From Akkermansiaceae bacterium (GTDB lineage: Bacteria; Verrucomicrobiota; Verrucomicrobiia; Verrucomicrobiales; Akkermansiaceae), in contig CAIRGO010000052.1 of the NCBI GenBank assembly GCA_903878115.1, positions 1-46,303 on the forward strand: 46,303 bases of DNA. The letters run 5' to 3'. This document shows positions 20,146-39,358 of the stretch, in pieces. Each line of letters opens with the position of its first letter. Positions within the stretch are counted from its first letter, which is position 1. A program made the translations under genes and the position numbers. The notes under the pieces were generated by a model. That model made no database searches. It was not told where the DNA came from and saw only the letters and a program-made list of their open reading frames with translations.

Positions 20146-21060
20146 TTAATCTTTCACCACCGCCACCGCCGTTGAGTTGCCAAGGAAATCAAAGTTTTTG
20201 TAGGACCAAACAACTTTTTTATCTGGTGACACTTCGATCACTTGTGGATTCTGTGGACCTGCATGGCAATTGATAAAACGCGTATTGCCATTCGCTAAAC
20301 GCTTCACTCCACACACCCAAGCTAGGGTGATTCCCTCGAGGTCTTTTTGATGAATTTCCCACACGATTTTTTTCTCAGGAGTGACTTCTAAGACGGAGTG
20401 TCCATTGCCAGCACCGATTAATGTGTTGCCATTTTTCAGGCGTTCCACCCCGAAAACACGATTGCCAAATCCGTCCGGACCATGGCCATTTTTCTGGGCT
20501 TGATCATAAAGTGGAATGGCATATTCCCAAACGACTTTGCCTTCAGCATCGTATTCTCTCACGCAGCCATCATTTTCGTGCGCGACAAGGTAGTGGTCAT
20601 TGGCCAATTTTCGCACCATGCGCGTATCGCTGTGAGCACTAGGAGATTTCACCTGCAGGGCGATTTGTTTTTTGATCACATTATTTGCATCCACTTCGAT
20701 GATTCTCGCGCTGCCAGATTCCGCGATCATCGTGTCGCCATTCGCCAATCTCTGAAAGGCGTGAATCTCGACTCTCCTATTTTTGTTCGATGGTTCAGCG
20801 CGGGCATCGTATTGCCAAACCACAGTCTGCTCTTGATTCGGCGTCATCTCAATGACATTCCACGCGTCCGTTTGCATCAGCACGTTACCGTTTTCCAACA
20901 CCTGCAGATCATGAATATTTTTCACCTTGGTTTTCCAAGTCACCTCGCCTTTGTCATTGAGATGAACGAGATTTCCCTTTTCCATATCAGCGATAAACAT
21001 ATCACGGGCATGGAGAAAATTTGTTAAACCAAAGGCGAATAGCAGCGTAAGTATTTTCAT
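20146..21060 (-). CDS. Secreted beta-propeller protein (PQQ/ASST-like repeats)
   Basis: The 304-residue product has a signal peptide (about 1-18) and then five or six repeats of about 45-50 residues, each with a (R)LxNGNTL or LENGNVL-type strand followed by a V(V)WE or VTWK strand. Examples are VLENGNVLMQTDA, QRLANGDTMIAESG, ERLKNGNTLIGAGNG and KRLANGNTRFINC, with VVWQYD, VVWEY, IVWEIH and VVWSYK between. This is a PQQ-like or arylsulfotransferase-like propeller of the kind common in Verrucomicrobiota and Planctomycetota. No catalytic residue pattern is evident, so a binding or scaffold role is as likely as enzymatic activity. It lies 49 bases after the giant membrane protein gene on the same strand and may be its last co-transcribed partner. 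Confidence 0.85.
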   Translation of the reverse strand: MKILTLLFAFGLTNFLHARDMFIADMEKGNLVHLNDKGEVTWKTKVKNIHDLQVLENGNVLMQTDAWNVIEMTPNQEQTVVWQYDARAEPSNKNRRVEIHAFQRLANGDTMIAESGSARIIEVDANNVIKKQIALQVKSPSAHSDTRMVRKLANDHYLVAHENDGCVREYDAEGKVVWEYAIPLYDQAQKNGHGPDGFGNRVFGVERLKNGNTLIGAGNGHSVLEVTPEKKIVWEIHQKDLEGITLAWVCGVKRLANGNTRFINCHAGPQNPQVIEVSPDKKVVWSYKNFDFLGNSTAVAVVKD

Positions 21061-21109: not shown

Positions 21110-24100
21110 TTATCCATGGCGGACACATTTTTTCCATAGTAATGTGCTAAAGAGCGCCAGCAATCCACAGAGTAAATAAGGAATCCATACAAACCCCATG
21201 TGATTGCGTTGCATGTCCAGATCAATTACCAATGGTTTTGCCCCATCCACTTGCACACTGCGCCCAAACGTCAGCACTGAACCACGTTCTGGCACATTCA
21301 CCTCCAACGACGAAGGCACTGGTTCTGCCGCCAATTGTTGTGTAACGATGCGATTGGCAATGGCTTTTAGCGCCGCATTTTCATCAGCAGAATTGCCTTC
21401 GAGAAATCGATCAAATTGTTTCGGGTCATAATTAGATTGTCCTTTCAGCACTGGATTCACCGTGGCGGCTTGCTCCATTTGTTCGTTATTGGCAATCCCT
21501 TCGGCACGATTATCAAGCATCAGTTTTTGACGTCGCGTATTTAATCCCAAAACCGCTTGCTGGGTTTTCAGTTCTCGTAATTGCACCCGAGCATCTTCAT
21601 TGGATGCTTGGTCGAGCATGTTATTACGAGCTGCATTTCCGAGTGCCATGCTGGCTTTTTCCTGATCACCTTGCACGATCCAATCATTCGCTTGATCCAG
21701 TAACGCAACCGCACTTGCGGATGATGAGGCTCGTTGATTGCTGACAAATGATTGGTAGTCTTCTAACTGAAAACGACCAACAACCGCTTGATTTTTGAGA
21801 TCAAAATCACCGCGATGATCTTTTAACTTCCACCCATCAGGAACCAAGATCCGCCACGTGAGATTTTCCATGGGGATATTTAACGAAGGGCCTTCGACAT
21901 GAAAATTTTTACCCGCAGAACTCGAATACACAAAACGAATGATTGCGGGCTCATCGGCAATCGGTGAAGGAAAAGCATAGAACAACCAATCATCCACTTC
22001 TCGCACCAATGCCGCGCCTTCATCATTTACTAGAACGTTATACAACGAGGAATTAGCTGGCAAACGTAGTCGGATGGTGCCCTTCTCGGCAACTTCTACA
22101 CGCAACACCACAGCGGTCAGTATCGCGCCAGTGGGAGAAATAAGACTTGTCAAAGAACCTTGGGCCACCCGCATTTTTTGGACATCGGCTAAGTCATGAC
22201 GTTGCAAGGTGATCAACAAGGGTGTTTTGCCATCAGTCACTTTAAACGTGAGAGCAGGCGCCGTTTGGCTGCGCAATTTTGGCATGCTGGATTGAATCAC
22301 CGACCAATCACTCATTTGCCAACCTTCGGGCAGTTCTTTTGCCACAGCAAGCTCAAGACGTCCCGCGGAGCGAACAGTGACGTAGTATGCTACTTGTCGA
22401 GTTTTCTCTAACAATATCGGTGTGATTTTCTCGCTAGACTCATCGCTCAATTGTTGTTGAAACTCAATATCCACTTGAGTCGTAGCAGAAATACCTTTTT
22501 GAAAACGAATTTCCCATACATCCTTTTCGCCTGCCACCTTTATAAAATCTGCTAATTCCTTGCCACTAGCTCGAATGGTCGCAGCTGCTTGATCACTGAG
22601 ACCAGGGATGCGCACACGCATCGATTTCAGCGAGGCATTTTCTACCTGATAGATCACGCTTGCTTTGGTGGTCATTTGCCCTTCGCGCATGACAGCATCA
22701 TGCAATACCTGTGCGGTCACCCATGGCTCTAACGGATCAATCAATAAATCGAGCTGCCAATCACGTTGCAACAGGCGAAACACTAAAGCACCAGCTTTAC
22801 CTGCATCATTTTTCTGACGTGCCGAAACATCAAACAACTCGCGATGATCCATCGGTGATACGTGATCTCGCGCCACCACCCCGATGCGCATGCCACGCTC
22901 TGGAACGATTGTCATGATCCCTGATTCACGAGTCGTATCGCGAATCACGATGCGCGGAGCAGGCCATTTCTTTTTCTGACCTGTGCCAGCTCCGGTAAAT
23001 GTTAGATGATACAACTGCGCGCCTATAGTACGTCCGGTGAGATGAAGAGTCATCAGACGTTTCCCTGCAGAATTACTCTCGGTCCAATGGCTCAGCGAAT
23101 CACCGGAAGCGCTCTCCACTTCTAGACCTTCTGGAATCTCCAGTTGCAAACGAAAAATGCCTGCTCGGGTGATTAGCACATTGACATCAGCGGCGAGTAA
23201 AACGCGATCATCTGCGAGAGTCAGTAGTTGCCAGGTATCAGTACGCATTTCTGGCGCAACGGCTGCCACACGAATCTTCGCAGAAGCCAGCGGAGCGCCA
23301 AACCGATAGACTTGTTGCAAATGAGTCAACGCATGACCCGCTTTATCTCGCGACAATAATGTTTGATCAAAATCTTCTGGATTGATCGTCGAAAGACCTT
23401 CGGTCTCTACTTTTTCGAGCTGTGAATCTTCGCCAAAGGCGAGTGCCATCATGCCGACTTCTCCCGCATTTCCCATGACACGCAGTGGTTCCAAGTTCAC
23501 GTCAACTGGCAATACCGCCGATCCGCGCTGGGTATCAACCGTAAAGGAAAACGCCTGATCTTGTGCTGGTTCGATCGCCACGCGAAGTTCTAATTTCTCA
23601 GGATCGAAGCGCCATACTCCCGTGGGACCATCACTCACATCGCTCACCGTGAAACCTTTTGGCACGCGCAATACTAGTTCGCTGATACGACCTTGCGTAG
23701 GCCGAATTTGCATCTTATGGCGACCGTTCACCACGCCGGGAAGTGGCGTCATGAGTTGCGCAGACTCGACGAAAAAGACTGGTTTTTCCGTGGCCACATC
23801 GCGCTGTTTTGCACGGGGCATGATTTGCACTTGAGCCATCGGACGCAACACCATGATCGCCCCACTTTGCTTATCGCTTAAGCCATCTAACAACTGCACA
23901 TGAGCCGCCGCAGGAGAATCAAACTCCCATCCGCCTTGATCCCATCGCAACGTGAGTTGTCGCATCGCCGCCGCAGATCCTGGCAAAATCCATGGTTGTT
24001 GTGGATTTTCCAATGGCATTTCGATCATTGCTTTTGCGGTAAAAAGCCCAGCATTTTTTGCAAGCAACACATAAACATATTGCTCGCCCATTTTTTCACT

Positions 24101-27100
24101 CACTACTTGCAACCCATCACTGGTAAATTCACCTAAGACTGCTGGCGCTTGAAGAAATCGAAAACGATCCCCCGCTTCCGCACGCAGCACAATATCGATC
24201 GAGCCATAGAGGCGATTTTCTTTTATGCTGCAATCATAGGTCATGCTTGAAATCGTTTTCACTCCGAAATCATCTGCCGCATTCGCGCGATGCCAAGCCG
24301 ATGAGCAGAAAAAGAACGCAACAGCGAACAGCGGCGCGACAGCATTCACCACAGGGGGCGATTTTTTTCTGAAAGCAGTGACATATTTCGCCAATAAATG
24401 AATGACTAGCGATGCTGAGACTACTAAGAAAAACAACCCAACATTGCCACGAATCGAAAGCATGCCGATGCTCAAAAGTAATGCACCGCCACCTAACCAC
24501 CAACGATCTTTTTTCATAAAACCGTAGCCAAGTGCGGCAAATCCTGCACACACACCGATCCACACAGCCAGACCTGCTTTGGCGAATTCAGGCGAAACAT
24601 TATCTAACACAATCGACATTTCCGAGCCAATACCGACCACAGGTGCCACGTAATTGATCACCGATGATTGCTGACGATACGAATCAAGACTCATCATAAA
24701 CATCAATAGCGATGCGACTAATACTAACAAAATCGCTAGTGTTTTCAAACGATTTTTGAACAGCATTACAAGCACTACAATCAGCACTGAGACATAAATT
24801 AGCGAAATCATCGGGCGGTGTGAGAGCCATTCAATTCCATTTTCTAACATCACCTCCCGCACCATTTCGACAGTTCCGCCACGAGGGACTAACTGCCTGC
24901 CTTCATCACCGACCACCGTCCACTCGCCCATCACCGCAGGTGCAAATAATATCGGTGCCGCAACCTTTACATGCGCCGCTTGCGATGACTGCACGCCATA
25001 ACGAATGGCAATCTCCACGGCTTGATTGAGATCATGTTTCATGGGCAACGGAACAATCACATCACCCTGATCAGTGCGCGGATTGGCAGTCACTTGATTT
25101 ACTTTTGTTTCTAACAAAATGGCACCCGCCGGCAACTTCATGCGCAAGGAATCACGGTGTTTTGATTTCACGAAAAATCGAGCATCAGTGACAACCTGAC
25201 CATCGCGCGAAACATGGCTATTCAACTTGATAAAATCCACCACCTGCTCAACCGTTTCCCCTGCCTTAAACCATGTCAAATTCATGACTATCGAAAAATC
25301 TCGCGCCGTATATTCCCACGTTGCCAAAGTTGGAGCAGAACTAAGCATGCGATACTCCGTGGGCAATTCGTTCACTTGCAAGGGCAACACAGGGCCTTCC
25401 GTTTTGTTGATATCTACTTTCACTTGCAATGGGCTAACCACTTGGATGAAACCGCGTTCGCTCTGCACGTTGAGCGGGCGAATCTCACCAGGGGCAATCG
25501 CTCCACCTGCGGCTTCCATCGCTTGTTCAAAAGTAACCAGCACGGTTCCCGAACCTAGCAATGGACTGGCGAGCGGCACTACTAACACATCGTCATCCTT
25601 GCGCCAATCGTGACCGATGTTTTGCCCGGTGACATCGATATTGCCAATGCCTTTTGGCACTTGAATACGCCATTCGCTGGCAGGCGCGCCGACCACGAAA
25701 TAATTAATCAGCACACTTCCAAAGACGGCCCCTTCTTTGACCGAATAGAGGTGAAACACATCTGCGACAATGCTTTGCCCCAGTGCTTCGGCCGTGACCT
25801 TAGCACTCCACTCAGAATCACGCAGTCGATACGCTTGTTGCAGGCCAATGATTCGTGGAGTAAAAGAATTCAAAGGGATTTCTGTGAGATTTTTTTTCTC
25901 TCCGCTTACCAAACGATAGCCCGATGCTGCGACCACGCCGATGTTGCCACGTCGAGATTTTGCCATCGGAAAATTCAATGCTGGCAGCACCCATTCACCT
26001 GCTTTTGCTGGTTCATTTTTTTCCAATCGCAAGCTAATCAATTGACGATTCAACACCGCTTTTGCGAAGAGAATTTTTAGACGTTTGTATCCCTTCACCG
26101 CTTCGGTGGCCAAGGTATAATCAGCCACGGCAGCACCAGTCACCGAAACCACCGCATAGTCAGATGGCACTTCCATTTCCCACTCACGCAATGGAGCCTC
26201 ACGAATATCTAACTCGAGATCGGTAGTGATTTTGCGATCCGTTTCGGCAAGCTCATAGATGGTCGTTTCAGTTACTGTTGTCTCAGGCAATACGTGATCG
26301 GCGTTGACTTGATAGGAATAGTCTTCTGCCGGAAAACGAAAAACAAATGCTTGGCGCAATTCGGCATCAGCGATGGGAAATTGCTCGGGAGCCAATTGAA
26401 TCAATGCTTTTGGCTCAGAAACTTCAATTTTTACCGCGCCTTCATTGGCGACGCGCAACCAACCACTGTGACGCAACGATCCTTGAGGTGAGAGACGCAT
26501 CACCGTTGTTTTCACAGGAAAATCACCAAGCGGTGCCTGTGTTTCGACGATGATCCTGCCAGCCCCTTCCCATGGTCGATTCAACTGCAAGGCCAAGGTT
26601 TTTTTGCCATCATTCTCGCTTACATTCCATCCAAGAATGTGTTCGCCCGTTACTGATAAAATTTCTCCTGGACCAGTAATCGTTAGATTGACCGCCGATA
26701 GTTTTCCTTGCAACACCCGAAAATCAATCATCGATGCTTGGCGGACTAGACCACTGCCGATGCGCACATCAGAAACTTCCGAACTGGAAAAAAATAAAGC
26801 ACCGTCTGCAATCTCTCGGCCATCACGCCAGGCGACTGCCGCATGACCATCGGCTGGTAAAAATCCTTTGATTGCAGTGGCATCAATCACTGGCACTACA
26901 GCTTGCGCTTCATCAAACTCCACCGATTTTGTTAGACCTTGCAACCAAAGCGGTACCACAATGCCGGCGGGTAAGTTGAAATCAATGATTTTCCAATCGC
27001 CATTGCGGGATATCGGCACATCAAAGAGAATTTCTAACGGAATATTCCCCACTCGATCGGCGATCAAATCATACACATATCCCTCACCTACAGCACGGAG

Positions 27101-27913
27101 TGAAATATGCCAACCATCGCCGGAACTAGCAGTGGTGAGCGCCGCAGTGCCTCCTAACAATTCCGTAACCGCACCTGCTTCACGGGCCTCAGCCTCTGCT
27201 TTGAGAATGAAACTCACACTTTTGCCATCTTTACTGAGGGTTCCATACAGTTGCGCATTTTTCACACTGAGACCCTGCGCATTTCCTGATACATCAAGAG
27301 ATAATTTTGCGATTGTCGCACCAACAAACTCTTTTCCTTTGCTATTCTCTACGGGAGCAAGACCTTCTGCTTTAATCACGCGAGCCATGGCGTTTCCTTC
27401 TTCGATGATTGTTACTTTTTGCGAAAATCCGACGGCTGCGCCAGCGCTGGGAAGCAATACATCCACGGTCATCGAACCTGCACGGTCGATGCGATGTTTG
27501 GACTTCATGATGACCGTCCACTGATTCGCTGCTGGTGGGGCTAATTTTTCAAGGGGTAATGCGCCTATCGTCCGCAGATCAAGAAAGCGTTGGCCTGTCG
27601 CGTCCACACGGATCGACCAATCTTTCATTTGCTCACCTGTTACCGATGTCACTTCACCTTTTCCTTGCAGCGCAATGCTCATCACATCGGGATTCCCCTG
27701 ATATTGCCGATACACCAAGGTTGTTTCCGTCTCGATCCGATCAGAGAACAGCTGCACTTTGGTGTCTGCCGTCACCGAAAATAAAGCAGGCGTTGTGCGC
27801 AGCGCAAAATCACGGGGAAAGATGAACACACCATCACCGATACTTTTTTCCAAAGTTGTTTCCTGCGCCATCGCCAGATTCAGACTGAGCAATGCAAGTA
27901 AGATTTTTTTCAT
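21110..27913 (-). CDS. Giant membrane protein with repeated beta modules, part of the sigma/VWA locus
   Basis: The 2267-residue product is not a known family to me. It has a signal peptide (1-16); an extracytoplasmic half (about 17-1030); a cluster of five to seven membrane helices (about 1033-1210); a second segment like an internal signal (PLFAVAFFFCSSAWHRANA near 1195-1211); a second extracytoplasmic half (about 1212-2235); and a final membrane helix with a basic tail (VWIPYLLCGLLALFSTLLWKKC). Both halves repeat a module in which a strand ending V(T/S)G is followed 4-6 residues later by Trp: residues 99, 429, 770 and 1610, with weaker copies near 600 and 1434. An Ala/Gln-rich helical region lies near 2050-2140. 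It begins 22 bases after the VWA anti-sigma gene, so one operon with it and the ECF sigma gene is likely. Binding or sensing at the envelope is inferred only. Confidence 0.85.
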   Translation of the reverse strand: MKKILLALLSLNLAMAQETTLEKSIGDGVFIFPRDFALRTTPALFSVTADTKVQLFSDRIETETTLVYRQYQGNPDVMSIALQGKGEVTSVTGEQMKDWSIRVDATGQRFLDLRTIGALPLEKLAPPAANQWTVIMKSKHRIDRAGSMTVDVLLPSAGAAVGFSQKVTIIEEGNAMARVIKAEGLAPVENSKGKEFVGATIAKLSLDVSGNAQGLSVKNAQLYGTLSKDGKSVSFILKAEAEAREAGAVTELLGGTAALTTASSGDGWHISLRAVGEGYVYDLIADRVGNIPLEILFDVPISRNGDWKIIDFNLPAGIVVPLWLQGLTKSVEFDEAQAVVPVIDATAIKGFLPADGHAAVAWRDGREIADGALFFSSSEVSDVRIGSGLVRQASMIDFRVLQGKLSAVNLTITGPGEILSVTGEHILGWNVSENDGKKTLALQLNRPWEGAGRIIVETQAPLGDFPVKTTVMRLSPQGSLRHSGWLRVANEGAVKIEVSEPKALIQLAPEQFPIADAELRQAFVFRFPAEDYSYQVNADHVLPETTVTETTIYELAETDRKITTDLELDIREAPLREWEMEVPSDYAVVSVTGAAVADYTLATEAVKGYKRLKILFAKAVLNRQLISLRLEKNEPAKAGEWVLPALNFPMAKSRRGNIGVVAASGYRLVSGEKKNLTEIPLNSFTPRIIGLQQAYRLRDSEWSAKVTAEALGQSIVADVFHLYSVKEGAVFGSVLINYFVVGAPASEWRIQVPKGIGNIDVTGQNIGHDWRKDDDVLVVPLASPLLGSGTVLVTFEQAMEAAGGAIAPGEIRPLNVQSERGFIQVVSPLQVKVDINKTEGPVLPLQVNELPTEYRMLSSAPTLATWEYTARDFSIVMNLTWFKAGETVEQVVDFIKLNSHVSRDGQVVTDARFFVKSKHRDSLRMKLPAGAILLETKVNQVTANPRTDQGDVIVPLPMKHDLNQAVEIAIRYGVQSSQAAHVKVAAPILFAPAVMGEWTVVGDEGRQLVPRGGTVEMVREVMLENGIEWLSHRPMISLIYVSVLIVVLVMLFKNRLKTLAILLVLVASLLMFMMSLDSYRQQSSVINYVAPVVGIGSEMSIVLDNVSPEFAKAGLAVWIGVCAGFAALGYGFMKKDRWWLGGGALLLSIGMLSIRGNVGLFFLVVSASLVIHLLAKYVTAFRKKSPPVVNAVAPLFAVAFFFCSSAWHRANAADDFGVKTISSMTYDCSIKENRLYGSIDIVLRAEAGDRFRFLQAPAVLGEFTSDGLQVVSEKMGEQYVYVLLAKNAGLFTAKAMIEMPLENPQQPWILPGSAAAMRQLTLRWDQGGWEFDSPAAAHVQLLDGLSDKQSGAIMVLRPMAQVQIMPRAKQRDVATEKPVFFVESAQLMTPLPGVVNGRHKMQIRPTQGRISELVLRVPKGFTVSDVSDGPTGVWRFDPEKLELRVAIEPAQDQAFSFTVDTQRGSAVLPVDVNLEPLRVMGNAGEVGMMALAFGEDSQLEKVETEGLSTINPEDFDQTLLSRDKAGHALTHLQQVYRFGAPLASAKIRVAAVAPEMRTDTWQLLTLADDRVLLAADVNVLITRAGIFRLQLEIPEGLEVESASGDSLSHWTESNSAGKRLMTLHLTGRTIGAQLYHLTFTGAGTGQKKKWPAPRIVIRDTTRESGIMTIVPERGMRIGVVARDHVSPMDHRELFDVSARQKNDAGKAGALVFRLLQRDWQLDLLIDPLEPWVTAQVLHDAVMREGQMTTKASVIYQVENASLKSMRVRIPGLSDQAAATIRASGKELADFIKVAGEKDVWEIRFQKGISATTQVDIEFQQQLSDESSEKITPILLEKTRQVAYYVTVRSAGRLELAVAKELPEGWQMSDWSVIQSSMPKLRSQTAPALTFKVTDGKTPLLITLQRHDLADVQKMRVAQGSLTSLISPTGAILTAVVLRVEVAEKGTIRLRLPANSSLYNVLVNDEGAALVREVDDWLFYAFPSPIADEPAIIRFVYSSSAGKNFHVEGPSLNIPMENLTWRILVPDGWKLKDHRGDFDLKNQAVVGRFQLEDYQSFVSNQRASSSASAVALLDQANDWIVQGDQEKASMALGNAARNNMLDQASNEDARVQLRELKTQQAVLGLNTRRQKLMLDNRAEGIANNEQMEQAATVNPVLKGQSNYDPKQFDRFLEGNSADENAALKAIANRIVTQQLAAEPVPSSLEVNVPERGSVLTFGRSVQVDGAKPLVIDLDMQRNHMGFVWIPYLLCGLLALFSTLLWKKCVRHG

Positions 27914-27935
27914 AAATGTTTGTGTGTTTGGGAGA

Positions 27936-30900
27936 TTAATTCGAGAGCACCCGTGTCATTAAAATCAATTGAGCGACTCGTTCACTTTGCTGGTAATAGT
28001 TTCTAATGGTAGTGATACTTTTCGACAGATCGTCAAAATTCACTGCTTGCCCAGCGACACCACCACGTAATTTCTCCGCTGTGAAAAGCGCCATGCCTGC
28101 GAGTTGCATCGAGGGCTGCGCAAGGTCAAACGGCGGAGTGTTGGCATCATACAAGATCGTCCATTTACGTTCTACCATTTCACCTGTGGCGGTATCGCGA
28201 AAACGCACACTTACCTCACCGATGTCACCCGATCCTTCTGGCAGTAGTGCTAATTGATACATTGCATTGCCTGCCTCTGCGGCGGCTAACTCTGCGGCAT
28301 CGACTTTATCATTGCGAAAATCCTCGGTCTTGAGTCGATCTTTTTCAAAACCTAACAACGAATAGCTCTTCACGCGTTGCGGATTGAGTTGCACTTGCAC
28401 TTTGACATTCTCCGCAGCAGGACGAAATGCTCCGGCAAGCTGACGGGCGAAATTTTCCTTTGCATCAGTGACGTTGTTAACGACGTAATAACGTCCATTG
28501 CCATGTCGTGATAATTCTAACAACATTTCATCATTCAGGCCATCGGTGCCGATACCAGCAATATCGAATGCTAGGCCTTTTTGACGAATGACTTTGATGT
28601 GATTTGCCAATCGCTCTGGGTTGGCATTGCCAAGATTTGCCGCGCCATCAGTCACTAACAGAATGCGGTTTTGCGCGCCATTTGCTTTGTTCCGTGTGGC
28701 GAGAACCTCGCCAAGATTCAATGCTTCTTCCATGTTTGTTCCACCATCGCTAGGTGCCTGCAAGATCAATTTGCGCAGGTTAGCAGCATCGTTACCGGCA
28801 ATATTTTCGCCTAACAAGCGCGGTGTTCGGGAGAATCCGATGATGCTTACTTTATCATTAGCAGTGAGTAAAGTAGTGAGCTCTTTGATCGATGCCTCCA
28901 TCACTTCCGAGCGATCCTCGCGATTCATGGAACCTGATTGATCAATCAACAAAGTAAGATGCAACGGCTGTCCTGCGCTACGACCTGCGGCAGCGGTGCG
29001 CATGCTGATTCTTAGCAAATTCTGCGAAGCCGCAAATGGATGCGCTGATTGATCAATCGCACAGGCAACTGGCTCCTTACCAGACGGTAGCGGATCACCA
29101 TAATCGAAGGCATTGTAAAATTCTTCCCTTCTCACAGACTCCGCCGCAGGACGTTGCCCAGCCGCTAAGGCAGCATTAGCTAACTTAAACGAGGCATCAC
29201 TGACATGGAGAGAAAAGGTAGAATAGGGTTCTACTGCCGCAAGAATTCCCTGTGACGCTTCCAATTCGAAGAACATTTTCGCCTGTTCTTTTTCTTCAAT
29301 TTCTTTTTTCCCTTCTTCAACGATGGCATCTTCACCATCTGACATTTTTAAATAATTATCTGCAATCATGCTAGGAGCTCTGCGCAATAGATTATCGCGT
29401 GTTTTTCGCTTTTCTTCTACGACATCACTCTGCTCCTGAATCGCATTTTCTAGTTCTTTGACCTCCATTTCAGCATTGCTTCTCCCATTTAGATCTTTCG
29501 TTCCTTTAAGCCCCCCACTTGCAAGTTGATCGGCATCGCCAAATGCGTCCTGTGCCCAGGGAGCGATGGCTGCGGGAGCGGGGGCAGCAGCAGGCTTTTC
29601 GTCTTTCGCGGCCATCGCGGCCGACTGTGGTTTCTGAGGTCCATTTGACTCAGAATCGAAATTAGTTGGTGTCGCTGGAGTTACTGGAAAAGCACCGTTA
29701 GCAACAATTCCGCGACTGCGCCCGCCGACAATGCTGTCAGGAAGTTCGGGGGGCTCTTCCGAATCAGATCTGAGACTACCAGCCCTGAGGTTTGCCTTAA
29801 ATTTGGATTCGGCCTCAGGCGAAATTACAGGGTTCTTAGCCAGATTATCGCCTCCGACGTCCTCCCCACGACCTTCACGACCACCCCAGCCACGTGTGTC
29901 CTCTGCGGTTGGAACAACAGGAGTTGGCTTCTTGGTTAGTACCGCCATCTTGCCAGACTGTGGTTCCTGAACTTCATCGGCTTCAGATTTTTGTTTAAAC
30001 AAACTACCCACCACAGGGATGTCTTTGCCATCGACTACTGTAGCATCCGAGTTTGTTATCTGACCTGTTTCTCTTCTTATGGCTCCATCTTGCGCCACAT
30101 CGTCGCTCAATGTATCTAACGCGGCTCCCTCCACGGCAAGCTCTCCCGAACGCTTTCCGCTAGGTTTTGCTTCGCCACGATTTGTATAGTCAAGATCACC
30201 ATCGATGGCTAAAGAACCTGCTACGATCCTAGTAGCTGGACCACCACCACCGCCGCCGCCACGGGTGTCACCAGGACCCCAGCCAACGCCGAAGTCATCG
30301 CCATTACCGAAATCGGTGGAGGGCGATGGCACATCTACTTCTGGAATGGGAATCGTAACATTAGATGAGGGTATAGCGGCGATTACTTTAGCGCTGGATG
30401 ATGAGGGAGCAGAAGGTTTCTGAACGGTATTGGAGCTAAGTTTTTCCGCTTCCATTCTTTCGTACGTATGAACGCCAGCCTCTTTTGAAGCACTTTTGCC
30501 GAAGGAGGCTATTGGCGGTGGAGATTTATCCCCAAACACTTGCAGGGGAGCATTTGACCGATATGATAAAACCACAGTTGCTTCGGATGCTTTTTTATTC
30601 GGGGCTAACGTAAATGTCGCAAGACTGGCGATGGCGTATAATACGATGATCAATGCAGCGATTTTTGCAAACTGCTGCCATCGTAATTTTCTCTTGGGAA
30701 GAGTTACAAGTGGAGCAACCTTCGCCGGTTCGCCGAGTATTACATTCAGTTTCTCCCTGCGTTCAGGCGATAGACGCCATTGGGGAGAGGGAGCGTCTTT
30801 GGCAACATCGATCAAAGACCCATGGATGGCCAGCATGCGCCGATAGAACACTTTCCACTCGGGTGACTCGGCGCACATTTTCTCTAATTCTTCTGCTTCA

Positions 30901-30992
30901 AATGCCGATGCTTGGCCTAAGACCCATGCGATGATGCGCGCTTCGATTTTTTCGTCGCCCACGGGGTTTAACTCTGTTTCTTCGTGATTCAT
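27936..30992 (-). CDS. Anti-sigma-like membrane protein fused to a YfbK-type VWA region
   Basis: The 1018-residue product combines three parts. The cytoplasmic N-terminus (1-95), with IIAWVLGQASAFEAEELEKM, resembles anti-sigma domains of ECF pairs and matches the product at 37478-38764. A membrane helix lies at about 107-128. A long low-complexity Ser/Gly/Pro region (about 150-560) includes a Gly run near 248 and a short coiled coil near 515-545. The C-terminal part is a YfbK-type unit: vWF_N segment (YSTFSLHVSDASF near 588), VWA domain (about 675-850) with the metal-site motif DQSGS at 684-688 and TDGAAN, then a DUF3520-like end (SYSLLGFEKDRLKTEDF). The ECF gene ends 21 bases upstream. The likely role is to hold the sigma factor until the VWA part binds a partner, perhaps the giant protein; this is inference. 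Confidence 0.9.
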   Translation of the reverse strand: MNHEETELNPVGDEKIEARIIAWVLGQASAFEAEELEKMCAESPEWKVFYRRMLAIHGSLIDVAKDAPSPQWRLSPERREKLNVILGEPAKVAPLVTLPKRKLRWQQFAKIAALIIVLYAIASLATFTLAPNKKASEATVVLSYRSNAPLQVFGDKSPPPIASFGKSASKEAGVHTYERMEAEKLSSNTVQKPSAPSSSSAKVIAAIPSSNVTIPIPEVDVPSPSTDFGNGDDFGVGWGPGDTRGGGGGGGPATRIVAGSLAIDGDLDYTNRGEAKPSGKRSGELAVEGAALDTLSDDVAQDGAIRRETGQITNSDATVVDGKDIPVVGSLFKQKSEADEVQEPQSGKMAVLTKKPTPVVPTAEDTRGWGGREGRGEDVGGDNLAKNPVISPEAESKFKANLRAGSLRSDSEEPPELPDSIVGGRSRGIVANGAFPVTPATPTNFDSESNGPQKPQSAAMAAKDEKPAAAPAPAAIAPWAQDAFGDADQLASGGLKGTKDLNGRSNAEMEVKELENAIQEQSDVVEEKRKTRDNLLRRAPSMIADNYLKMSDGEDAIVEEGKKEIEEKEQAKMFFELEASQGILAAVEPYSTFSLHVSDASFKLANAALAAGQRPAAESVRREEFYNAFDYGDPLPSGKEPVACAIDQSAHPFAASQNLLRISMRTAAAGRSAGQPLHLTLLIDQSGSMNREDRSEVMEASIKELTTLLTANDKVSIIGFSRTPRLLGENIAGNDAANLRKLILQAPSDGGTNMEEALNLGEVLATRNKANGAQNRILLVTDGAANLGNANPERLANHIKVIRQKGLAFDIAGIGTDGLNDEMLLELSRHGNGRYYVVNNVTDAKENFARQLAGAFRPAAENVKVQVQLNPQRVKSYSLLGFEKDRLKTEDFRNDKVDAAELAAAEAGNAMYQLALLPEGSGDIGEVSVRFRDTATGEMVERKWTILYDANTPPFDLAQPSMQLAGMALFTAEKLRGGVAGQAVNFDDLSKSITTIRNYYQQSERVAQLILMTRVLSN

Positions 30993-31013
30993 TTTCTAAA
31001 AAAAATTTGTTAT

Positions 31014-31523
31014 TTATCCTTCCACACTATCCACTCCCAGGCGCCGCAGCGAATCGGCCAGTCCTTTTAATAAATGGTGCAATTTATAACCGACATTGCT
31101 CACACTCAGTCCTGTCTGCTTGCTTATGTCTTCATAGGAAAGTTGTCGTTTGTATTTCATTGCGATCAATTGTTGGTCTTGTTCCTGCATTTCAGCCATC
31201 AGCATGCGCAGTGCTCCCACCGCTTCCATTTTCCCTAATTCCTCATCGGCTTGCGGCGTCTCACTTTGCCATTCTGCTTTATCGTCCATCGGAGTTTCGC
31301 GGCGATGGTCGCGCAAATAATTCAGGGCGAGATTTCGAATTGATCGATAAATCCACGCCTTCGGACTCGTCACTTCACTCCAATGTTCGTGCAGCCTGAG
31401 AAAGGCCTCCTGCACCAGATCTTCGGCCGTTTCGCGCTGACCTACGATGCCATAAGCATAGCGCAACAATGCCGATTCCTCAGCATTGAATAGCTCTCTT
31501 AGGCTTATTGATTCCTGCGTCAT
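31014..31523 (-). CDS. ECF-type RNA polymerase sigma factor (first pair)
   Basis: Region 2 is seen in LLRYAYGIVGQRETAEDLVQEAFLRLHEHW and in SPKAWIYRSIRNLALNYLRDHRR. Region 4 is seen in QQLIAMKYKRQLSYEDISKQTGLSVSNVGYKLHHLLKGL, a helix-turn-helix. The size (about 169 residues) is normal for an ECF factor. An in-frame upstream start at 31607 would add 28 residues without domain character, so the ATG at 31521-31523 (MTQESISL) is chosen. The gene precedes the VWA anti-sigma gene by 21 bases and is very probably controlled by it. It lies downstream of the helicase gene on the same strand; the 211-base gap must contain its promoter, but no clear ECF-type promoter was recognised. Confidence 0.92.
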   Translation of the reverse strand: MTQESISLRELFNAEESALLRYAYGIVGQRETAEDLVQEAFLRLHEHWSEVTSPKAWIYRSIRNLALNYLRDHRRETPMDDKAEWQSETPQADEELGKMEAVGALRMLMAEMQEQDQQLIAMKYKRQLSYEDISKQTGLSVSNVGYKLHHLLKGLADSLRRLGVDSVEG

Positions 31524-31734
31524 CGTGCTAGTGAGAAGCACCGAGGTCGCTCCCTTATGGGCACGATGACGGGCAAGTAAAACGTGATTTTCCATGATAT
31601 GAGCCAAGGTAATTTCATTCCCTACACAGGTAAGACCCGCGAACAGTATCTTTCTTAGAAAATTTATGAAAAAAGTGCGAGACGAAAGAAAAGTCTTACA
31701 GGCATCAGACTTTCCTAGGTCTTCTACCCTGAGC

Positions 31735-37477: not shown

Positions 37478-38764
37478 TCACTTTTGGTTCGCCAAGCTAA
37501 TGGCTTGCTTGATGACCACGAGCGAGGAAAGACGTTGCGGATCGCTGAGTTGAGACTCTAGGGCATTCACAGCTTGCAGCAATGCGGCGTTGCTAGATTC
37601 TGGTTGGCGCAGCCAATCGGCAAAATCTGCGATCAGCAACAAATGTTTCATTGATACTGAAGATGATGATGAAAGGCTAGCTATCGTATCAACGGATTTG
37701 CCATTTACAACGGCGCTTAGCACACCCACTTGATCCAACGCACGAGGTGCTTGCAACTCTAACATGATTGTGGTCATCGCCCCAGCAGGCAATAATTTGC
37801 TCACCTGTTGCTTGCCCATGTCCACATCAAAACCAACCAAGCGATAGCGATCAACCATGGCGGGCACATACTCCATCGTCACTGCCGTTGCCGAAGCATT
37901 GGTATTGCGTAACGTAATCGCCATGCGGTAGTGGCCCGTTTGATTGGATACTGGAGCGACTTCCGAAGTGAACTCGATGCCTTGTTGTGACGCAGAGGAT
38001 CCAGCATCCAAGGCGAAAGCATTGATTATTTCTTCACGACGAATGAGACGTTCATTTGGCAGTGTTTTTTCTTCTAAAATACAACGTTTGACCCAATTCC
38101 ACGAGGCTGTGCCGGCGATGATGGGCAAACTTGCACGCGGATGAGTGTTCGCATCAATCAATCCACGGCGACCTACTGGCGGCAATTCACTGATTTGTGG
38201 CAATGGCTGATGCGCGATTTGCTTAGCAATCGATACCAGAAATTCGTTTGGCTTTTGCGTCATCAATGCGGTGCGGGTATCCATCGCAGAGGAACCTCCC
38301 ACGGCAACAGCGGAAGAAGAATTCTCACTCGGAAAATCCGGTGCGAGGCTTGGCAACAGGGCAATTTCTCTGGTGATCTGCGAGTCGACCGCCATCTCAC
38401 CATCTTGCTCAGACAATGGATTATGTATGCCAATCCATACGCCGATGATCACAGCCGCTGCAGTAGCAAGCACGATCCAACTGGAGTAAGTTCTGCGTGG
38501 CGACAATGTTACCAAATTGGCTGGCGGGGTAACTTCGTTATTTTTTGCTGAACGCAAAATCAATTCTCGTTGACGCGGCTCAAGCGCCGATTTTTCAGCG
38601 CCCAAAAGCGTCGATAGCCGAGCATGGAACAATTGTTTTTCGCGCACTGCCACTTGCAATGCTGGCTCTGCCGCGACTAAGCGCTCCATCTCCGCAGCCT
38701 CTTGTGCTGGCAGTTCACCCAGCAACCATGCGGTCATTCTTGGGCTATCTAATAATTCATTCAT
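37478..38764 (-). CDS. Anti-sigma-like protein with VWA flanks but no VWA domain
   Basis: Residue numbers here count from a TTG at 38770, two codons before the chosen ATG at 38762-38764. The N-terminus (TAWLLGELPAQEAAEMERL) aligns with the anti-sigma part of the large VWA protein of this window. A membrane helix lies at about 97-116 and a variable Ser-rich stretch at 120-205. Then comes a segment like vWF_N (ASLPIIAGTASWNWVKR ... LIRREEIINAFAL, 213-254), continuing to YRMAITLRNTNAS (281-293). The metal-binding VWA core should follow, but the sequence passes straight to the post-VWA segment (DRYRLVGFDVDMGKQ near 307) and a DUF3520-like end. No DxSxS motif exists. It lies 15 bases after an ECF sigma gene, so it probably still controls that factor. 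The comparison is by eye. Confidence 0.85.
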   Translation of the reverse strand: MNELLDSPRMTAWLLGELPAQEAAEMERLVAAEPALQVAVREKQLFHARLSTLLGAEKSALEPRQRELILRSAKNNEVTPPANLVTLSPRRTYSSWIVLATAAAVIIGVWIGIHNPLSEQDGEMAVDSQITREIALLPSLAPDFPSENSSSAVAVGGSSAMDTRTALMTQKPNEFLVSIAKQIAHQPLPQISELPPVGRRGLIDANTHPRASLPIIAGTASWNWVKRCILEEKTLPNERLIRREEIINAFALDAGSSASQQGIEFTSEVAPVSNQTGHYRMAITLRNTNASATAVTMEYVPAMVDRYRLVGFDVDMGKQQVSKLLPAGAMTTIMLELQAPRALDQVGVLSAVVNGKSVDTIASLSSSSSVSMKHLLLIADFADWLRQPESSNAALLQAVNALESQLSDPQRLSSLVVIKQAISLANQK

Positions 38765-38779
38765 AATCAATTTTCTTCT

Positions 38780-39358
38780 TTATTCCAAATCGCGCGGGAT
38801 CCATTCGCGTAATTTTTTAATGCCGTTATGAATCAGAAATCCAATATTACCTGAAGTGAGCCCCGTCACCCGACTGATCTCTTCATAACTCAATCCCTGT
38901 TCAAATTTTAACAAAATCACCTCGCGCTGATTGGGCGTGAGGCGATTCAGATAGATGTCTAATTTACCGTGCGCTTCTTCCTGATCCATCGCTTGATCTG
39001 GCGATGCCACATCGCTCGCAATCTGGTTCAGCTTGAGCTCGTTCATCTCGACCATGCGTGAATCTTTGCGCAGCACATCGAGCGCCCGATTGCGACACAC
39101 GGTGAACAACCAGGTTTTCACGCCGAGGCGAACTTTCGCAACATCTTGTTGGCAAAGACGAATGAACGTATCCTGCACGACATCGCGCGCGCGCTCCCAA
39201 TCATGAACAAAGCCTTTGGCGTATCCGATCAAAGGTCGCTCATATTCCTTGAGCGCCCATTCGATGAATTGTTCTTGTGTTTGAATCATATCTGGCGGCG
39301 AATCGGATGCTACTTCCGTCATAGGAGTAACGTGTGAGACACCATTTTCTTTGATCAT
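38780..39358 (-). CDS. ECF-type RNA polymerase sigma factor (second pair)
   Basis: The 192-residue product shows region 2 (LIGYAKGFVHDWERARDVVQDTFIRLCQQ, and VKTWLFTVCRNRALDVLRKDSR) and region 4 (LTPNQREVILLKFEQGLSYEEISRVTGLTSGNIGFLIHNGIKKLREW). An N-terminal stretch of about 25 residues precedes region 2. It lies 27 bases after rex and 15 bases before the anti-sigma-like gene that should control it. With the rpoD and rex genes upstream on the same strand at short distances, it may also be read from their promoter. It differs clearly from the first ECF factor, so the two pairs are not a recent duplication. Target genes are unknown. Confidence 0.93.
   Translation of the reverse strand: MIKENGVSHVTPMTEVASDSPPDMIQTQEQFIEWALKEYERPLIGYAKGFVHDWERARDVVQDTFIRLCQQDVAKVRLGVKTWLFTVCRNRALDVLRKDSRMVEMNELKLNQIASDVASPDQAMDQEEAHGKLDIYLNRLTPNQREVILLKFEQGLSYEEISRVTGLTSGNIGFLIHNGIKKLREWIPRDLE

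Follow-up and report, generated by a model that had tools for sequence, protein, structure and literature searches.

A conserved gene triad of an ECF sigma factor, a VWA-bearing putative anti-sigma protein and a giant membrane protein as a likely autoregulated envelope-signalling operon

Verrucomicrobiota and Planctomycetota are rich in extracytoplasmic function (ECF) sigma factors, the signals of which are mostly unknown. The closest described relatives of the system considered here are class I anti-sigma factors and their sigma factors, e.g. RsiW/SigW, ChrR/SigE, RslA/SigL, and RskA/SigK, of which ChrR itself is soluble. The zinc motif Hx3Cx2C is dispensable in this class and is present in ~56% of the known members (PMC7406223). 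A different layout is found in TonB-dependent signalling (FecI/FecR/FecA, FoxI/FoxR/FoxA), where a large third envelope protein touches the anti-sigma factor from outside, and for FoxA and FoxR this contact is reported to shield the anti-sigma factor from proteolysis (PMC11637429). Here we analyse three adjoining genes for an ECF sigma factor, a protein with a von Willebrand factor A (VWA) domain and a giant membrane protein from an Akkermansiaceae bacterium (assembly GCA_903878115.1). They lie in a stretch of 46,303 nucleotides, in the following termed the window, which is the whole contig CAIRGO010000052.1 (C52) of a 331-contig assembly in which the giant has one match. With a probability of about 0.7 we read the three genes as an old, autoregulated envelope-signalling operon.

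The three open reading frames (ORFs) are all located on the minus strand, as are all features of the triad given below, with the VWA gene (27936-30992, 1018 residues) following the ECF gene (31014-31607) after 21 nt and the giant gene (21110-27913, 2267 residues) following the VWA gene after 22 nt, in agreement with the first-pass annotation of this DNA. Counted from the TTG at 31607 the ECF ORF comprises 197 codons. Two alternative starts exist, ATG 31595 and ATG 31523, and the former appears more likely because the N-terminal extension is common to the homologue at locus L039 and, in part, to that at L040. The protein (31014-31595) consists of sigma regions 2 and 4 (Pfam Sigma70_r2, E 4.8e-17; Sigma70_r4_2, E 2e-8) with no region 3, and it exceeds the cut-off of TIGR02937 in NCBIfam, so that its initial assignment as ECF sigma factor holds.

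Over all examined loci 142 different giants were found, recognised by a profile of the C-terminal half. A full triad is present beside 103 of them, and in 103/103 cases the gene order is ECF-VWA-giant, the first two genes sharing a strand and the ECF gene coming first. In 10 further loci the sequence ends after the VWA gene, 25 are uninformative, i.e. the giant is cut or less than 1300 nt of upstream sequence is available, and only four giants (L182, L194, L199, L200) stand without the ECF and VWA genes. The compact locus that had been suggested from the window alone is thus a recurrent one, and solitary giants, on whose being common the first-pass annotation would have given up its proposal, are rare among these loci. 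Within the order Verrucomicrobiales 57 of 141 genomes have a giant match at E ≤0.001 (33 strong, E ≤1e-90; 24 weak), and the VWA module (E ≤1e-60) occurs in 31 genomes, all of which (31/31) also have a strong giant; in both genomes with a strong giant and no VWA module the giant is cut by a contig end. None of the 20 genomes listed for g2, a genus of small genomes that is probably Akkermansia, has either protein. At the level of the phylum the C-half profile matches 66 of 387 genomes, and the 40 of these regions that were analysed comprise 30 full triads, two with the VWA gene at the sequence end and eight with neither gene, five of the latter having little or no upstream sequence. A scan of a genome collection yielded 197 relatives; the best 80 all belong to Verrucomicrobiota or Planctomycetota, these being the most similar loci, i.e. 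a sample tilted toward close relatives. The neighbourhood of the three genes is no product of chance, and the triad is a real, widely conserved gene set that very probably forms a signalling operon. The co-inheritance fits a giant that binds the VWA module and controls the sigma factor, and it would also fit a giant that is the output of the operon. Two variations of the layout may be mentioned: in L142, L150, L169, and L099 the VWA and giant frames are separated by 2.3-4.3 kb, and in L173 (6794-10534, minus strand) two consecutive ORFs with VWA modules lie between the ECF gene and the giant.

The second gene probably encodes a membrane-spanning anti-sigma protein with a periplasmic vWF_A-VWA-YfbK_C module. 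An anti-sigma role of its N-terminus, which would bind the sigma factor, is very likely because matches to NCBIfam, zf-HC2, and RsiW/ChrR as well as comparisons by hhalign and Foldseek point to it together. The NCBIfam profile 'anti-sigma factor' matches the window protein weakly (E 0.019), and it matches 13 of 22 relatives, the best with 1.4e-6. A motif check found no Hx3Cx2C motif in the N-terminus of the window protein; the motif stands at the same place in 25 of 28 divergent loci, 24 of these 25 matching zf-HC2, and is present in 24 of the 114 VWA ORFs of at least 700 residues. A profile of this zinc group recognises the solved anti-sigma factors RsiW (3.6e-8), ChrR (4.6e-8), RslA (2.5e-5; a membrane protein according to its PDB entry, the name being that of the Foldseek listing), and DdvA (3.3e-5). 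The zinc-less group is homologous to the zinc group (hhalign probability 96.5%, E 7.2e-10), and the assignment of the window protein to class I is indirect, i.e. via this profile-profile match. The AlphaFold2 model of the domain (residues 14-86, 30735-30953) consists of four helices with a predicted local distance difference test score (pLDDT) of 83, and the top 16 Foldseek rows obtained with it all come from sigma/anti-sigma complexes, with chain lengths that suit the anti-sigma partner; the best Z, a middling value of 6.0, is to RslA. The early proposal that the first ~95 residues are anti-sigma-like is thereby supported. Hydropathy predicts a single transmembrane helix (residues 111-129, 30606-30662). 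In L165-L202 this helix and the residues that follow it (e.g. LLPALxxAREKAR) are similar to the pilin-like start of DUF1559 proteins; PF07596 is matched by 2 of 25 sequences, and their profile matches pilins weakly.

The helix is followed by a long, low-complexity linker (residues 130-571, 29280-30605), delimited by Pfam borders and presumably periplasmic, and by a module in the order of the YfbK proteins, i.e. vWF_A (PF12450, residues 572-661, 29010-29279, E 3.1e-14), VWA (residues 679-845, 28458-28958), and a partial YfbK_C (residues 857-915, 28248-28424, E 6.4e-19). The VWA domain contains the metal site DQSGS...T...D. In an alignment from which one truncated row was dropped, 114 of 121 sequences retain the complete set of five metal-site residues, and D, S, S, and the final D are present in 121/121; a pattern of fixed spacing (17/122) is too strict for this count. 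The architecture read at first sight, a membrane helix and a YfbK-type VWA unit with an intact DQSGS, is thus recovered, with YfbK_C being partial. Among 112 sequences the distance from helix to module ranges from 207 to 1236 residues (median 498.5), and the fraction of disorder-promoting residues is 0.61 in the linker vs 0.52 in the module. The linker itself looks like a mosaic of borrowed pieces: residues 169-251 (~30240-30488) recur with 72% identity in two members of a tandem trio of proteins of the same genome (L080:11194-16029) and with 53% in the third, the trio having weak squalene-cyclase matches and looking otherwise unrelated, and residues 503-591 share 49% (82% over a short stretch) with a Wzz/AAA chain-length protein (L081:8603-10759).

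The giant belongs to no Pfam or NCBIfam family, the lone listed Pfam row lying far under its cut-off; these scans revealed no enzyme or peptidase family, and profiles of its two halves found no solved structure by sequence. The halves are homologous to each other, since each half's profile matches the other half and BLAST gives cross-matches too. The protein is composed of an N-terminal array (residues ~33-1030, 24824-27817), a central hydrophobic cluster (residues 1034-1206, 24296-24814) of 5-6 segments, the last of which is signal-peptide-like and ends in A-x-A, by eye in several members, a C-terminal array of beta modules (residues 1240-2240, 21194-24196), and a C-terminal transmembrane helix predicted by hydropathy (residues 2241-2259, 21137-21193). 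Repeated beta modules, claimed for the whole protein at the outset, are seen in the AlphaFold2 model of the C half (pLDDT 82.6), while the N half is known by its homology to the C half. The arrangement of the modules is uncertain because the predicted template modelling score (pTM) is 0.38, and the fold-search results concern mostly one module, i.e. the last one (residues ~1909-2235), which resembles the N-terminal domain of M1 aminopeptidases. A helical hairpin is inserted into it (residues ~2050-2195, 21329-21766). This hairpin is conserved and contains the motifs SNEDAR and NTRRQ, and it is our guess that the acidic, highly conserved SNEDAR stretch could be the part that meets the VWA domain. 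In some genomes of families f2-f4 (L070-L078) two to three consecutive very large proteins (~1100-2400 residues, some cut) are distant relatives of the giant; no ECF or VWA match is present in these stretches, and one ORF that follows them has weak STN/secretin matches.

The operon is probably autoregulated because a shared promoter-like element precedes the ECF gene. In the window the putative ECF-type promoter TTCTAAGAAA-N10-GCGGGTCTT (31632-31660) matches the consensus TTCYAAGRAW-N10-SCGKGTCTT and reaches 28.8 bits with a matrix from 100 ECF upstream regions (non-redundant, of 109), the window locus being in the training set. The dyad CTAA-N17-TGTC occurs in 35 of these 100 regions, whereas in five shuffles no dyad occurred in more than 8. 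In a first test 51 of 51 training loci exceeded 14 bits (shuffled 1/255, opposite strand 0/51), and the element was found in 11 of 11 Opitutaceae loci, one of which (L183) had been in training, with groups partly guessed. The stricter repeat used a matrix refined on 14 loci of family f1 and groups defined by genome family or record title: 12 of 12 held-out loci of families f2 and f6 exceeded 10 bits and 10 of 12 exceeded 14 bits (opposite strand 2/12 and 0/12), and 10 of 10 held-out Opitutaceae loci exceeded 14 bits (opposite strand 0/10, shuffled 2/50), always at a single spacing. As the starting seed came from dyads over all 100 regions, both tests are not fully blind. Judged by these scores, the element is well supported in both Verrucomicrobiales and Opitutaceae, is near opposite-strand level in Planctomycetota and appears changed or lost further away. 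In L044 a promoter-like element of 18.0 bits is also found directly before the giant (upstream of 7755).

Candidate target genes were scored with the 100-region matrix described above, the training of which had included no target gene. Among four genomes of genus g1, the window's own genome has a single zero-mismatch match to the full consensus, the operon itself, and other matches in this genus precede orthologous genes, i.e. those for an alpha-2-macroglobulin (L204, L206, L208), for ecotin (L209, L211; Pfam E 7.4e-41 and 8.7e-41), and for a protein of ~240 residues (L203, L205). The alpha-2-macroglobulin of L204, encoded outside the window, has A2M (3.7e-20), MG2 (4.5e-16), bMG10 (4.2e-28), and bait region (1.3e-4) domains and a CxEQ thioester motif (CAEQ at residue 1475). 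Within the order an element of more than 10 bits precedes the alpha-2-macroglobulin gene in 10 of 15 triad vs 0 of 7 non-triad genomes (one-sided Fisher 0.0046), or in 9 of 14 triad genomes (Fisher 0.0068) without G065, the triad of which is presumed since the giant is cut; both p-values are optimistic as the genomes are related. Controls gave 0/420 for shuffled sequences and 1/21 for the opposite strand, and the element precedes 2 of 197 other genes near triads, 19 ECF genes being set aside. The test covers 22 of the 25 genomes with a strong match, the gene start being absent in G138 (triad), G083, and G044 (both non-triad); second or weaker copies were dropped and one fixed search interval was used for all rows, earlier intervals having missed sites in over-long ORFs (6/14 and 8/15 above 10 bits). 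The ecotin gene has the element in 2 of 7 triad genomes, i.e. in both g1 genomes with ecotin, and in 0 of 7 non-triad genomes. A 14.9-bit site precedes the alpha-2-macroglobulin gene of G512, an Opitutaceae genome outside the two triad genomes that were counted for this family. In other genera the candidates include genes for a protein of 142-144 residues (L256, L268), a kinase (L266, L270), and a DUF4139 protein (L274, 27.5 bits), with no protease-inhibitor family among them, and most other good sites precede genes with secreted-protein-like starts, as judged by eye.

Two extensions of the target set were rejected. Serpin genes have the element in 1 of 5 triad vs 1 of 24 non-triad loci (29 scored), the one good site having 13.0 bits (L273/L312); in one of the triad genomes, G104, the giant is cut. 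A broad regulon is not indicated either: g1 genomes show no enrichment of the core pattern, with 6 matches in the window's own genome vs 11 for the reversed pattern, and a large regulon is therefore unlikely and single matches may be due to chance.

Based on these findings we propose that the VWA protein would keep the ECF sigma factor inactive through its cytoplasmic four-helix domain, cross the inner membrane once and extend a long flexible linker into the periplasm, ending in the metal-dependent VWA/YfbK module. The giant would be anchored in the inner membrane with two large periplasmic arrays of beta modules and is the most likely partner of the VWA module. A change in the envelope, i.e. 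damage, loss of the giant:VWA contact or cleavage of the linker, might then free the sigma factor, which would recognise the above element and transcribe its own operon and, in Verrucomicrobiales, may also drive genes for secreted proteins, among them alpha-2-macroglobulin as a protease trap and, within genus g1, also ecotin.

Several observations weigh against this proposal. A gap of more than 300 nt, reaching 4.3 kb, separates the VWA frame from the giant in 14 of the 103 triads, and one of more than 300 nt lies between the ECF and VWA frames in 3 of the 103; in such triads it is not certain that the genes share a single transcript. Of the four giants without an adjoining pair, L182, L194, and L200 have sufficient upstream sequence and L199 has 1.7 kb, and distant giant-like proteins at nine loci of other lineages (L070-L078) stand without the pair as well; thus, the giant fold can work without it. 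On the side of the VWA protein, the NCBIfam anti-sigma score of the window member lies below the curated cut-off, every Foldseek E-value for the anti-sigma model exceeds 0.3, and the profile of the zinc-less domains alone matches no anti-sigma chain among PDB sequences. The promoter element exceeds 10 bits in 9 of 11 planctomycetal loci vs 5 of 11 on the opposite strand in the first test, in 6 of 11 vs 5 of 11 in the stricter one, and in 9 of 27 distant verrucomicrobial loci (shuffled 3/135, opposite strand 0/27). The alpha-2-macroglobulin element is missing in 5 of 15 Verrucomicrobiales triad genomes and found in 0 of 2 Opitutaceae triad genomes. Finally, the genomes are related, and the counts are not independent of each other.

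The role of the giant is the point at which explanations diverge. The sigma/VWA pair might sense something else and the giant might be its main induced product, e.g. an envelope scaffold or shield, a real possibility that falls clearly short of even odds. If the operon is autoregulated, as is probable, the giant is a target by its position alone, and both the additional element before the L044 giant and the secreted-like genes behind most other good sites would suit such a role, whereas the near one-to-one co-inheritance with the anti-sigma protein and the conserved metal-binding VWA domain on the latter suit a direct partner better. Both readings can hold together. A guard against proteolytic attack, with linker and giant as bait and alpha-2-macroglobulin and ecotin as response, would account for the difference between triad and non-triad genomes at the alpha-2-macroglobulin gene, for the ecotin sites in g1 and for the length and composition of the linker. 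It is rather unlikely, as serpins are unlinked, most ecotin-bearing triad genomes (five of seven) have no ecotin element, the alpha-2-macroglobulin link is missing in the two Opitutaceae triad genomes and the other candidate targets are of different kinds.

That the genes are merely co-transcribed envelope genes, with the VWA protein being a structural, non-regulatory surface protein, is very improbable: YfbK-type VWA proteins do exist without sigma factors in other bacteria, but the anti-sigma domain is recognised here by sequence, profile, and fold, and the ECF gene lies upstream throughout the triads. We therefore retain the autoregulated envelope-signalling operon as the preferred reading. 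Its most far-reaching form, a hitherto undescribed class of trans-envelope sigma switch shared by two phyla in which the giant and a metal-dependent VWA bridge sense envelope attack, with alpha-2-macroglobulin and ecotin in the response, is doubtful as a whole.

In the surroundings of the triad no further member was identified. The propeller gene (20146-21060), which the first-pass annotation had considered as a possible fourth member, has no match among the order's other triad neighbourhoods that were analysed (L039-L069), and the same holds for the UvrD-like and BNR genes upstream. Elsewhere in the window a second ECF gene (38780-39358, minus strand) is followed by a gene (37478-38770, minus strand) for a 430-residue protein. 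Its N-terminus is anti-sigma-like, and it has a vWF_A match slightly below the cut-off and a trace of YfbK_C with no VWA match between them, a pattern that would suit loss of the VWA domain. On contig C72 of the same genome (G000; L079:1-2549) a third ECF gene adjoins one for a 676-residue protein with a YfbK-type VWA module at the contig end.

The analysis adds the promoter element and the candidate targets to the earlier reading. The three genes stay together in both phyla, a promoter can be recognised in Verrucomicrobiales and in Opitutaceae, and a giant family without Pfam entry gains a testable role. If the proposal is true, the metal-dependent VWA module joins the ways of passing the state of the envelope to a sigma factor. 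The proposal makes the concrete prediction that alpha-2-macroglobulin and ecotin are induced.

The open literature searched contains no description of an ECF-VWA-giant system, in line with the initial impression that this exact make-up is undescribed, nor of an alpha-2-macroglobulin under an ECF factor; a published ECF-group entry that notes the context may exist. The nearest known systems each share a part of the layout. With class I anti-sigma factors the VWA protein has in common the homology and fold of the anti-sigma domain, the ECF gene directly upstream, one transmembrane helix and, in its divergent orthologues, the zinc motif, whereas its periplasmic part consists of a 200-1200-residue linker and the vWF_A-VWA-YfbK_C module, and the triad has a nearly constant third gene. 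The likeness to TonB-dependent signalling is one of working only, i.e. a sigma factor, a membrane-spanning anti-sigma factor and a large third envelope protein, with the putative giant:VWA contact as the counterpart of the outer contact in those systems; no FecR or TonB-receptor family is found in the three proteins (Pfam, E up to 1), and the giant, unlike FecA and FoxA, consists of beta modules and has predicted anchoring helices that resemble those of inner-membrane proteins. YfbK proteins (PF12450, PF12034) share the domain order and the metal site, to which the VWA protein adds the anti-sigma domain, the transmembrane helix and the ECF and putative giant partners, with YfbK_C matched over profile positions 4-62 of 184. 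The last module of the giant resembles the N-terminal domain of M1 aminopeptidases (Z ~13-14, root-mean-square deviation ~3 over ~155 residues) and also ribophorin I/OST1, for which Z reaches 15 over 314 residues at a deviation of 20. The giant differs from both by the inserted long helical hairpin, several tandem modules, an identity of ~10% and the lack of a peptidase family.

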